From Gordonia desulfuricans NBRC 100010 (GTDB lineage Bacteria > Actinomycetota > Actinomycetes > Mycobacteriales > Mycobacteriaceae), in contig NZ_BCNF01000053.1 in the NCBI RefSeq assembly GCF_001485495.1, forward strand, positions 1-36,824: 36,824 nt of DNA, given 5' to 3'. This document shows, one piece after another, positions 25,470-29,288 of this stretch (its first letter is position 1; every line of letters begins with the position of its first letter). The notes under the pieces were generated by a model. It saw only the letters and a program-made list of their open reading frames with translations, ran no database searches and was not told where the DNA came from. The position numbers and the translations under genes are program-made.

Positions 25470-26897
25470 GTGCCGAAACCTGCCATCTCCAACGTCCTCG
25501 CGAGCCGCTACGCCTCGGCCGATCTCGTCGAGATCTGGTCGGCGACCAACAAGATCGCCACCGAACGCCGCCTGTGGATCGCCGTCCTGCGGGCCCAGAG
25601 CGACCTCGGGATCGACGTCCCGGAGGGCGCGATCGCCGACTACGAGCGGGTCGTCGACCAGATCGACCTCGCGTCGATCGCCGAGCGTGAACGCGTCACC
25701 CGCCACGACGTGAAGGCGCGCATCGAGGAGTTCAACGCGCTGGCCGGGCACGAGCAGATCCACAAGGGTATGACCAGCCGCGATCTCACCGAGAACGTCG
25801 AGCAGCTGCAGATCCTGCAGTCGCTGCGGTATGTGCACTCCCACGGTGTCGCCGTGCTCGCGCGCATCGTCGAGCGTGCCGCGCAGTACTCGACGGTGGT
25901 GATGGCCGGCCGCAGCCACAACGTCGCCGCCCAGGCCACCACCCTCGGCAAGCGGTTCGCATCGGCCGCCGACGAGCTGATGATCGGCCTGACCCGGCTG
26001 TCGGAGCTGATCGACCGCTACCCGCTGCGCGGGATCAAGGGCCCGATGGGGACCAGCCAGGACATGCTCGACCTGCTCGGCGGGGACGCCGGCAAGCTGG
26101 CCGAACTCGAGTCGCGGGTGGCGACCCACCTCGGATTCGCGCGATCGCTGACCTCGGTCGGCCAGATCTATCCGCGGTCCCTCGACCACGACGTGCTGTC
26201 GGCGCTGGTGCAGGTGGCCGCCGCGCCGTCGTCGCTGGCCCACACCATCCGCCTGATGGCCGGTCACGAGCTGGTCACCGAGGGTTTCCAGCCCGGCCAG
26301 GTCGGGTCGTCGGCAATGCCGCACAAGATGAACACCCGCAGCTGTGAGCGGGTCAACGGCCTGCAGGTGGTGTTGCGCGGATACGCGTCGATGGGTGCCG
26401 AACTCGCCGGGGCCCAGTGGAACGAGGGCGACGTGTTCTGTTCGGTGGTGCGCCGCGTGGCACTGCCCGACGCCTTCTTCGCGATCGACGGCCTGATGGA
26501 GACCTTCCTGACGGTGCTCGCCGAGTTCGGCGCCTACCCGGCCGTGATCGCCAACGAGCTCGACCGCTACCTGCCGTTCCTGGCCACCACCAAGGTGCTG
26601 ATGGCGTCGGTGCGTGCCGGTGTCGGCCGTGAGACCGCCCACGAGGCGATCAAGGAGAACGCCGTCGCCGTCGCCCTGGCGATGCGCGAGGAGGGCCGCG
26701 AGCCCGATCTGCTCGACCGGCTGGCCGCCGACGACCGTATCCCGCTCGACCGCGTGCAGCTCGATGCGCTGCTCGAGGACAAGGAGGCCTTCGTCGGTGC
26801 CGCAGGCCGTCAGGTCGCCGACGTCATCGCCGCCGCCGAGAAGGTCCTCGCCGCCAGCCCGGAGGCCGCCGCCTACACGCCCGCCCCGATCCTCTAG
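25470..26897 (+). CDS. purB: Adenylosuccinate lyase PurB
   Basis: Homotetrameric lyase of 475 residues acting twice in purine synthesis: SAICAR to AICAR plus fumarate, and adenylosuccinate to AMP plus fumarate. The fumarase/aspartase superfamily signature GSSAMPHKMN (flexible loop with the catalytic Ser) is present, as are the KGMTSRDLTENVEQLQ and MAGRSHNVAAQATTLGKR segments. Cytosolic, typical length. The GTG start is set by the leaderless box. It is followed by the first of the two palindromic repeats that bracket the next gene. Confidence 0.96.
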   Translation: MPKPAISNVLASRYASADLVEIWSATNKIATERRLWIAVLRAQSDLGIDVPEGAIADYERVVDQIDLASIAERERVTRHDVKARIEEFNALAGHEQIHKGMTSRDLTENVEQLQILQSLRYVHSHGVAVLARIVERAAQYSTVVMAGRSHNVAAQATTLGKRFASAADELMIGLTRLSELIDRYPLRGIKGPMGTSQDMLDLLGGDAGKLAELESRVATHLGFARSLTSVGQIYPRSLDHDVLSALVQVAAAPSSLAHTIRLMAGHELVTEGFQPGQVGSSAMPHKMNTRSCERVNGLQVVLRGYASMGAELAGAQWNEGDVFCSVVRRVALPDAFFAIDGLMETFLTVLAEFGAYPAVIANELDRYLPFLATTKVLMASVRAGVGRETAHEAIKENAVAVALAMREEGREPDLLDRLAADDRIPLDRVQLDALLEDKEAFVGAAGRQVADVIAAAEKVLAASPEAAAYTPAPIL

Positions 26898-26910: not shown

Positions 26911-26988
26911 CCCAGACCCTCCACTTTTGCGCAAACCCACGGGGGTAAAACCCGGGGTATCTGCGTAAGTGTGGAGGGTTTGTCGGTT
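26911..26988. repeat. 78-bp palindromic repeat, left copy
   Basis: Begins CCCAGACCCTCCAC and ends GGTTTGTCGGTT. The arms ACCCTCCACTTTTGCGCA (26916-26933) and TGCGTAAGTGTGGAGGGT (26962-26979) pair with 3 mismatches. It agrees with the right copy at 73 of 78 positions in the same orientation. It can also end purB transcription. Confidence 0.85.
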
Positions 26989-27038
26989 CTGTGGATGGCC
27001 ATCCGGCGTCGACGTCGGATCGTGCGACGCTGCTCGGC

Positions 27039-27953
27039 ATGGATCAGTCCACCGAGATCACACGCCGCGCCGAGGTGCTCGGTCGCGTCGCCACCGATCG
27101 CGTGCTGCAGGCCGTCGTCCGCGACGGTGAACGCGTCCGGCTCTGGCCGGGGACCTTCATGGACTGGCCCGACCACGACGCGCTGAGCACAACCGAGCGG
27201 TACCGGATCACCGCGATCGAGTCCGCGCGCAAGGGCGGACCGAACCGCACGCTCAGTCACGTGTCCGCACTCGCCGTCCACCACGTCCCGATGCTGCGAC
27301 CCGATCTGCGCCGGGTGCACTACATCGCCTCCGCACCGACCCGGCACACCGCCCGGGTCTCGCGACACAACGGAATCCTCCTCGACGACGAGCGCGAGCA
27401 GGTCGAGGGTGTCTGGGTCACGACACGTGAACGAGCGCTGTGCGACGCCGCTCGTCTCGGCACCTTCGAGCAGGCCGTGGCGATGCTCGACGCCGGGCTG
27501 CGGGCCGGCGCCGACCCCGTGCTCATCGACGCGACCATCGAACGGCTCCGCGGTCACGTCGGCGTCGAGCGGCTCCGGTATGCCAACGGCTTCGCCGATG
27601 CGCGGTCGGAGAGCGTGGGGGAGTCGTTCAGCCGTGCGCTCATGGCGGGTATGTCCGATGTCCCGACGCCGGAGCTGCAGGTGGAGATCCGCGACGCGGC
27701 GGGCCGGTCGATCGGTCGCGTCGACTTCCTGATCGGGGGCGTCCTGGTCGGCGAGTTCGACGGCAAGGTCAAGTACAGCGGCACCCTCGGCGACGACCCG
27801 CCGTCGGAGGTGGTCGTCAAGGAGAAGATCCGCGAGGACGCGCTCCGGGCAGAAGGCTATGTCGTCATCCGGTGGACATGGGAGGACCTGCTCGATCCGC
27901 GTCGGTTCCGGGCGGTCCTGCGCAAGGGGATGCGGGCCGCGGGACTGCTCTGA
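27039..27953 (+). CDS. AbiEi-like/DUF559 protein with an intact nuclease motif
   Basis: A 304-residue protein. The N-terminal part (HTTH-like RAEVLGRVATDRVLQ... and the VSALAVHHVP...HYIASAPTRHTARVSRHNG segments) resembles the AbiEi antitoxin-type proteins of actinobacteria. The C-terminal part is a DUF559 (Vsr-like) domain of the PD-(D/E)XK nuclease superfamily: ESVGESFSRALM, D229 in GRVDFLIG, E239 and K243 in GEFDGK, and the later KEKIREDALRAEGYVVIRWTW. The catalytic set looks intact. No partner toxin gene is adjacent, so toxin-antitoxin function is doubtful; a mobile or defence nuclease is an alternative. GACGCT lies 7 bases before ATG 27039. The gene is bracketed by near-identical 78-bp repeats. 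Confidence 0.75.
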   Translation: MDQSTEITRRAEVLGRVATDRVLQAVVRDGERVRLWPGTFMDWPDHDALSTTERYRITAIESARKGGPNRTLSHVSALAVHHVPMLRPDLRRVHYIASAPTRHTARVSRHNGILLDDEREQVEGVWVTTRERALCDAARLGTFEQAVAMLDAGLRAGADPVLIDATIERLRGHVGVERLRYANGFADARSESVGESFSRALMAGMSDVPTPELQVEIRDAAGRSIGRVDFLIGGVLVGEFDGKVKYSGTLGDDPPSEVVVKEKIREDALRAEGYVVIRWTWEDLLDPRRFRAVLRKGMRAAGLL

Positions 27954-27964
27954 GCGTCGGCCCA

Positions 27965-28042
27965 CCCAGACCCTCCACACTTGCGCAGACCCACGGGGGT
28001 AATACCCGGGGTCTCTGCGTAAGTGTGGAGGGTTTGTCGGTT
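27965..28042. repeat. 78-bp palindromic repeat, right copy
   Basis: Same orientation as the left copy, starting 1054 bases after it. The arms ACCCTCCACACTTGCGCAGA (27970-27989) and 28014-28033 pair at 19 of 20 positions, the odd pair being G-T. Its inner part carries GGGTAATACCC. It ends 22 bases before the stop of the minus-strand Rdx gene. Confidence 0.88.
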
Positions 28043-28064: not shown

Positions 28065-28349
28065 CTACTCGGCCGCCTTGTCGGCGTGGCCGAGGGCCCA
28101 GTCGGGCAGTACCGCATCGCGGACGCGGCGCTTGAGTTCGGCGGCGTCGGGGAAGCCGCCGTCGGCCTTGCGTTCCCAGATCCGTGTGCCGTCGGCGTCG
28201 ACGACGAAGATCCCGCCGGTACCCGGCTTGAGCGTCACCGCACCGAGATCCGCACCGAAGGTGTTCAGCAGTTCGCTCGCCATCCAGCTCGCCCGCAACA
28301 GCCAGTTGCATTGGGTGCAGTAGGTGATCGTGATGTGCGGAGCGGTCAT
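28065..28349 (-). CDS. Rdx/SelT-SelW-SelH family thioredoxin-like protein
   Basis: A 94-residue member of the Rdx family (SelW/SelT/SelH). The CxxC redox motif is YCTQCNW near residue 11, and the fold continues with [27 protein letters not shown]. Animal homologues carry selenocysteine; here both positions are Cys. It probably works as a small cytosolic thiol oxidoreductase, with an unknown partner. ATG 28349 is chosen over a GTG two codons earlier. It diverges from purC, whose ATG is 48 bases away. Confidence 0.85.
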
Positions 28350-28384
28350 GGCCACCCAGACTGCCAGATCACGACGCCGCGCAC

Positions 28385-28397: not shown

Positions 28398-29288
28398 ATG
28401 CGCCCGGCACTTGAGTCATACACGCACATCGCCTCGGGCAAGGTGCGTGAGATCTACGCGATCGACGACGACACCCTGTTGATGGTGGCCAGCGATCGGA
28501 TCTCGGCCTACGACCACGTCCTGAGCCCGGTGATCGGCGACAAGGGACGCATCCTCACCGCGATGAGTTTCTTCTGGTTCGACGCCCTCGGCGTGCCGAA
28601 CCACCTTGCCGGCGGGCCCGAGGACGAGCGCATCCCGGCCGAGGCCGTCGGCCGTTCGATGGTGGTGCGCAAGCTGCCGATGGTGCCGGTGGAATGTGTC
28701 GCCCGCGGTTACCTCACCGGTTCCGGTCTGATCGACTACAAGGCCACCGGCGCGGTGTGCGGCGTCGCACTGCCCGAGGGTCTCGGTGAGTCCGACAAGC
28801 TGCCCGAACCGATCTTCACCCCGGCCACCAAGGCCGAGCAGGGCGACCACGACGAGAACATCAGCTACGACGCGGTGGCCGCACAGGTCGGCGAGGAGCT
28901 CGCCTCCGCGCTGCGCGACACCACCCTCGACATCTTCTCGCGTGGTGCGCAACTGGCCGCCGAGCGCGGAATCATCCTGGCCGACACCAAGTTCGAGTTC
29001 GGTCGCGATGCCGACGGCGGCCTCGTCCTGGCCGACGAGGTGCTGACGCCGGACTCGTCGCGCTACTGGGAGACCGCCACCTATACGCCGGGACAGGTGC
29101 AGCCGAGCTTCGACAAGCAGATCGTGCGGAACTGGCTCACCTCACCGGAATCCGGCTGGGACAAGGCCTCCGACACCACCCCGCCCCCGCTGCCCGCCGA
29201 GGTCGTCGACCGCACTCGGGCGCGATACATCGAAGCCTACGAATGGATTTCGCAGAAGTCCTTCGACGATTGGCCCGGCCCGGCCTGA
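28398..29288 (+). CDS. purC: SAICAR synthetase PurC
   Basis: Phosphoribosylaminoimidazole-succinocarboxamide synthase, 296 residues, joining aspartate to CAIR with ATP in de novo purine synthesis; its product is the substrate of Pur[12 protein letters not shown], the [12 protein letters not shown] segment, [22 protein letters not shown] and the [12 protein letters not shown] motif are all typical. Normal length, cytosolic. It starts at the leaderless ATG and ends 50 bases before the oligopeptidase start, possibly one transcript. Confidence 0.96.

Follow-up and report, generated by a model that had tools for sequence, protein, structure and literature searches.

A predicted nuclease gene of Gordonia desulfuricans NBRC 100010 lies between two nearly identical palindromes, and the encoded protein likely (with a probability of roughly 0.6) binds and cuts at its own palindrome and so drives the copying of the palindrome, and occasionally of the entire unit, to new gene ends. 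The gene was found in the window, i.e., the whole stretch of 36,824 nucleotides that was analysed (contig NZ_BCNF01000053.1), and its surroundings are listed in Table 1. The framed architecture recurs in homologues, each of which is paired with a repeat of its own. Copies of the repeats are dispersed outside the cassettes, gene and repeats are present or absent between relatives, and divergent cassettes are found inverted at one site. The sequence comparison of relatives supports movement of the gene and the repeats, and this movement would be brought about by the nuclease itself. We give about even odds to the broader reading, namely that AbiEi plus Vsr/homing-endonuclease-like proteins constitute a class of repeat-propagating elements that occurs throughout the actinobacteria and has not been described before, which own private repeats, spread them, exchange and invert cassettes, and can capture unrelated cargo genes.

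Table 1 Features of the nuclease-palindrome unit and its flanks in the window.
Feature	Position	Strand	Remark
purB	25470..26897	+	Left flank of the unit
Left cognate palindrome	26911..26984	.	Starts 13 nt past purB
AbiEi-like gene with predicted PD-(D/E)XK nuclease domain	27039..27953	+	304 aa
N-terminal AbiEi-like part	27039..27599	+	Residues 1-187, predicted DNA binding
C-terminal predicted nuclease domain	27600..27950	+	Residues 188-304
Predicted active-site stretch	27723..27773	+	D229 ... G238-E239-F240-D241-G242-x-x-K245; putative catalytic role
Right cognate palindrome	27965..28038	.	Starts 11 nt past the nuclease stop codon
Rdx-family gene	28065..28355	-	Right flank; transcribed towards the nuclease gene
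purC (SAICAR synthetase)	28398..29288	+	Anchor for the matching site in relatives

The first-pass annotation had described paired 78-bp repeats around the gene, and this description was borne out. The left (26911-26988) and the right (27965-28042) repeats share 73 of 78 positions, or 78 of 86 when the match is lengthened to 86 nt, and each is strongly palindromic. The left repeat has 32-nt arms (26913-26944 and 26951-26982) that are 72% complementary, and the arms of the right repeat (27967-27998 and 28005-28036), of the same length, are 81% complementary. Folded as RNA of the plus strand, the left repeat gave -47.8 kcal/mol (z -7.0) and the right repeat -57.5 kcal/mol (z -9.2), and in neither case was any of 200 shuffled sequences as good. 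The right palindrome contains the words CCCAGACC and CGCAGACC at a spacing of 19 nt. An Rfam search of the window gave no match at the gathering threshold. The gene had also been placed between purB and purC; purB is indeed its left neighbour, whereas the Rdx-family gene intervenes on the minus strand before purC.

The frame of the nuclease gene is open, and an alternative upstream GTG start at 26991 is possible. An intact nuclease core had been noted in the first-pass annotation, and D229, E239, D241, and K245, together with other residues of the active-site stretch, were invariant across 27 aligned homologues. The protein of the window matched no family in Pfam or NCBIfam, and a sequence-profile search of the PDB gave nothing significant (best E 0.18). 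Because no Pfam family was matched, the initial label of the protein as DUF559 was not confirmed by profile, whereas its assignment as AbiEi was backed by the AbiEi models of PADLOC (best E 1.2e-9), which matched all 27 aligned homologues. Pfam searches with these 27 homologues returned AbiEi families only, with AbiEi_4 in 10 of them. In the AlphaFold model, an AbiEi-type part is followed by a domain that was closest to I-Bth0305I and Vsr by fold comparison, and the model thus supports a protein composed of an AbiEi part and a Vsr/I-Bth0305I-like domain. No AbiEii-like toxin gene adjoins the window gene, whose neighbours are purB and the Rdx-family gene, and no DDE or serine enzyme was detected by profile.

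Homologues of the gene were framed in the same manner. R1, a palindrome model built from 9 copies, detected palindromes on both sides in 10 of the 33 homologue loci of the genus and the order, with one cut by a contig end. A model-free comparison of the left with the right flank gave a repeat pair with a score of at least 45 in 26 of 32 loci; other nuclease subfamilies were also framed, each by its own different repeat. The named set comprised 80 loci, 79 of them testable and one at a contig end, and a repeat pair was present in 60 of the 79 and absent in 19. By comparison, the pair score was reached at none of 464 shifted positions (best 39) and by none of 276 other genes in the relatives' loci (best 40), which places the repeats beyond the chance resemblance that the first-pass annotation had still considered. 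The flanks of purC had no pair in any of 29 valid loci. One high-scoring purC control locus (L084) was discarded as a truncated contig, so that 29 of 30 were kept.

The protein was found in 195 of 296 genomes by a class-wide search. This search returned 30 loci, of which 27 were tested (three repeats of earlier loci were omitted) and one was too short; a pair was present in 25 of the remaining 26, which represent eight families, and absent in one. Two of the class-wide loci (L286 and L289) are repeats of earlier ones (L044 and L165), leaving 24 of the 26 as new, and the loci are not fully independent because both sets contain related species. The repeats were inverted in 19 of the 25 positive class-wide loci and were often just partly palindromic; in the named set, 20 pairs were inverted and 40 direct, an orientation that palindromy makes ambiguous. 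Cassette repeats had a median length of 69 nt and a median identity of 84%. The right repeat started a median of 6 nt past the gene end and within 10 nt of it in 41 of 60 loci, where no space is left for an AbiEii-like toxin gene. Hence further copies beside other homologous nuclease genes, for which a search had been proposed, were found. No match was obtained in phages, and 4 plasmid records matched, 3 of which were from Tsukamurella.

Each nuclease subfamily has a private repeat sequence. The median score between the left and right repeats of a cassette was 82.5 (62 cassettes). Between cassettes, the sharing of a repeat (score of 40 or more) rose with protein identity: none of 1729 protein pairs shared one below 50%, 1% of 120 at 50-60%, 36% of 14 when the identity was 60-70%, and 64% of 28 from 70% upwards. 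Among the matches listed, nearly every repeat hit lay in its own genome, the exceptions being G004, which had hits of the L044 repeat, and G010, with hits of the L037 repeat.

A word is doubled within the repeat arms. In the right repeats of the named cassettes, an 8-mer recurred at 7 or 8 of its 8 positions in 51 of 60 (24% of shuffles reached 7), and the spacing was exactly 19 nt in 42 of those 51. For the class-wide loci, 18 of 24 reached 7 (42% of shuffles), with a spacing of 20 nt in 12 and 19 nt in 3. In the window family, the right copy and a single solo palindrome showed the 19-nt step, which was less clear in others. Subfamilies differ in the word but hardly in the step, and we read this pattern as a predicted pair of binding half-sites in each arm, with a separation of about two helical turns.

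Cognate copies were found outside the cassette in 12 of 12 genomes, including the window's genome (G000) for its second paralogue, and in 7 of 8 genomes belonging to other families, i.e., in 19 of 20 in total; for G282, no dispersed copies were present among the matches listed. The dispersed copies numbered from at least one to dozens per genome, which are lower bounds. R1 gave 20 matches in the window's genome, two per place and thus 10 places, two in the window and 8 outside. The palindrome arms were conserved, and the centres varied with compensating changes. Across 31 copies drawn from several species, 91.5% of the cells paired and changes on both sides numbered 120 versus 44 in shuffles, although this set leans towards pairing because 24 of its copies were found using R1. 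Changes on both sides were far fewer when the pairing was slid.

Window-type palindromes were present in 18 of 59 genomes of the genus. All 12 genomes in which a close gene was found (E<=1e-65) had them, versus 6 of 47 others (Fisher 1.7e-8), where the cut-off was chosen post hoc (12 of 16 at 1e-60) and the association is inflated because the carriers are related, most of them belonging to one clade when 30 genomes were placed on a purC tree. Six genomes of the genus (G044, G010, G052, G005, G004, and G072) had the palindromes but lacked a close gene; of these, G005 has a framed paralogue and G072 has a decayed gene. A nuclease paralogue in the window's genome (G000:C37:9597-10518; L023, L024) matched in two separate pieces and is apparently decayed, and flank comparison at L023 gave no repeat pair.

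At the site of the window, the nuclease gene was absent between purB and purC in all 26 relatives showing both genes and in 3 further purB-purC loci seen in part. An R1 search of 30 purC loci returned just the window's own copies and none in relatives, so that the strain differences which the first-pass annotation had suggested looking for apply to both gene and palindrome. Together with the framed homologues elsewhere, the absence of the gene at this site supports the earlier reading as a small mobile or recombining unit. The pattern named there as speaking against such a unit, i.e., repeats scattered at random without a link to the gene and the gene fixed in all relatives, did not appear, though solo copies are indeed located at gene ends. 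In two relatives (L056 and L058; G058 and G001), a segment of about 0.5 kb, apparently containing a small gene, is located between purB and the Rdx-family gene in place of the nuclease unit, and the purB-Rdx spacing in a third (L057; G059) is the same.

Solo palindromes also differed between relatives. One was present in G022 and absent in G019, two genomes whose flanking sequences at this site are 95.9% and 96.8% identical, and another was present in G022 and G018 and absent in G002 and, by match coordinates, in G014. No clear target-site duplication was seen at these two repeat-only empty sites. Forty-six solo copies, orthologous copies included, were examined and 42 of them classed, of which 25 lay between convergent, 17 between tandem, and 0 between divergent genes; the background of gene pairs was 107 convergent, 246 tandem, and 102 divergent. 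In G022, a second palindrome is located about 1.5 kb from the first, and the two frame native DNA. This pair arose by the landing of a new palindrome beside an old one, suggesting that the spread of repeats may matter more than that of units. The nearest full-length paralogue in the window's genome is 41% identical, which indicates that the complete unit has not been copied recently there. Some convergent junctions with a solo palindrome in certain species carry extra DNA of about 3.4-20 kb in other species (L251-L255) and appear as insertion hot spots. The idea that islands of 15-20 kb at solo sites were framed by palindrome pairs was dropped, since one or no palindrome passed there.

A clade of species has kept a nuclease cassette at one and the same site, indicating that inheritance is often vertical. 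At this site, G010 has one degenerate palindrome and G072 has two palindromes with a decayed gene. No palindrome was found there in five outgroups with close flanks (G046, G065, G056, G001, and G017) or in G059, G068, and G055, which carry other DNA between the flanks. When the cassette site was compared between G002 and G018, the flanks were 94.7% and 94.2% identical, and the interior was inverted and 75% identical. Cassette identities from a separate comparison, in which end gaps were free and short alignments may be favoured, were not relied on for these values. The matches between the two genomes ended within the palindromes. Judged from the gene strand, the nuclease gene has one orientation relative to the flanks in G002, G023, and G051 and the opposite one in seven others. 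Furthermore, a single palindrome lies between two convergent genes in G018, G014, G022, and G019, and at the same place G002 has two palindromes with a shared centre around 2.7 kb containing NlpA-lipoprotein and luciferase-like monooxygenase genes. The best relative of this cargo was in G051, where the available flanks contained no R2 palindrome.

For the nuclease-driven copying proposed here, the following steps are conceivable. The AbiEi part would read the word doubled in the arms at 19 or 20 nt, the Vsr/I-Bth0305I-like domain would cut or nick at the palindrome, and repair or replication would copy the repeat to new gene ends. Alternatively, recombination between palindromes might swap the DNA lying between them.

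Other explanations account for parts of these results. The strong hairpins, the right repeats beginning shortly after the gene, and the location of the solo copies at convergent and tandem gene ends (25 and 17, with 0 divergent) would fit gene-end hairpins, i.e., bidirectional terminators or mRNA stabilisers, by which the nuclease gene is flanked incidentally. This explanation is unlikely, because it leaves unexplained the near-identical copy upstream of the same gene, the separate repeat of each nuclease subfamily, and the inversion in 19 of 25 positive class-wide loci with its often partial palindromy. In addition, 0 of 276 other genes had such a pair, and no long T run was seen by eye after the stem, which has just GGGTTTG at its end.

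It is quite unlikely that the repeats are operators by which the AbiEi-like part represses its own gene while the nuclease part serves elsewhere, e.g., in defence. The second copy lies past the gene, many others lie at distant gene ends with 0 of 42 between divergent genes, and copies are gained and lost between species, although the private pairing of protein and repeat, as well as the words doubled at 19-20 nt, which suggest binding sites, would suit an operator. Palindromes acting as handles for host recombination around a defence or toxin-antitoxin gene, with the nuclease uninvolved, would agree with the match of the PADLOC AbiEi models to 27 of 27 homologues, the divergent alleles between conserved flanks, and the unrelated cargo between palindromes at one site. 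We regard such a cassette as very unlikely; the tight match of repeat and protein and the solos at sites empty in relatives are unexplained by it, an AbiEii-like toxin gene is not adjacent, and there is no room for one before the right repeat in 41 of 60 loci. Each of these three explanations covers a part of the data and may hold in addition to copying by the nuclease.

The spread of REP repeats is thought to be aided by an enzyme of their own, which is unrelated to the present one. As described in the available part of one report (PMC2817692), the REP-RAYT system has a gene between two palindromic repeats, dispersed cognate repeats, co-variation of repeat and enzyme, and an enzyme that outpaces its neighbours in change. 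Comparable features were found here: the nuclease gene is flanked by two palindromes (some pairs outside the window group are partly palindromic), the cognate repeats are dispersed with an abundance tied to the nuclease gene, repeat and enzyme co-vary in the nuclease cassettes, and the nuclease gene changes faster than its neighbours in one clear case (G002 versus G018). In contrast, the REP-RAYT enzyme is a Y1/HUH tyrosine transposase, whereas the protein here combines an AbiEi-type part with a Vsr/I-Bth0305I-like domain. The nuclease-linked repeats are also longer (median 69 nt), appear to be fewer per genome, and have a word doubled at 19-20 nt. Since four REP-RAYT features are shared and the defining enzyme fold is different, we read the nuclease-palindrome unit as resembling REP-RAYT but relying on an unrelated nuclease; it would work like REP-RAYT without being a member of it.

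AbiEi is counted as a toxin-antitoxin gene in the available part of PMC12915292. The AbiEi N-terminal fold and the AbiEi profile matches resemble the AbiE type IV toxin-antitoxin system, but the window gene is without an AbiEii nucleotidyltransferase partner in its operon, and the nuclease-like extra domain and the repeats on both sides are peculiar to it in this comparison. The C-terminal domain fold of the window protein resembles Vsr and the EDxHD homing endonuclease I-Bth0305I, which binds as a dimer to a target of nearly 60 bp according to the available part of PMC3943268. Unlike I-Bth0305I and Vsr, the window protein has an AbiEi-type part in front. Furthermore, many dispersed cognate repeats are found here versus one element-free allele for a homing endonuclease, and the window gene stands alone, its neighbours giving no sign of a surrounding intron or intein. 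The unit has a single gene, its repeats are inverted in 19 of the 25 class-wide loci with a pair, and repeat-only copies exist, all of which is reminiscent of insertion sequences and MITEs. However, no DDE or serine enzyme was detected here by profile, the repeats have internal doubled words, and no clear target duplication was seen at the two repeat-only empty sites. The lack of a visible target duplication, the absence of a recent unit copy in the window's genome, and vertical inheritance at one site argue against a simple transposon.

We found no description of AbiEi-type genes with palindromes in open-licence PMC papers, an absence limited to that literature. If the reading is true, the role of REP-RAYT would have been invented a second time, independently, with a PD-(D/E)XK nuclease as the sole enzyme, and dispersed genomic palindromes would have evolved with at least two unrelated nucleases. 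Many proteins filed as AbiEi antitoxins would gain another role. Moreover, dozens of protein-repeat pairs would make the DNA recognition of one family readable from sequence, and the spread of extragenic palindromes in high-GC bacteria would become testable.

Several unusual repeat arrangements were also observed. In the window's genome, a divergent family palindrome (L018:1440-1576; G000:C55) abuts a short tandem array, the unit of which begins like the outer word of the palindrome. At a class-wide locus (L290; G335), the left flank contains a 343-nt stretch of several internal repeats that recurs on the right. Finally, two inverted doublets composed of repeats alone, with separations of 14 and 54 nt, were seen at G133:C1:4321316-4321496 and 5976387-5976592, respectively, and are REPIN-like.
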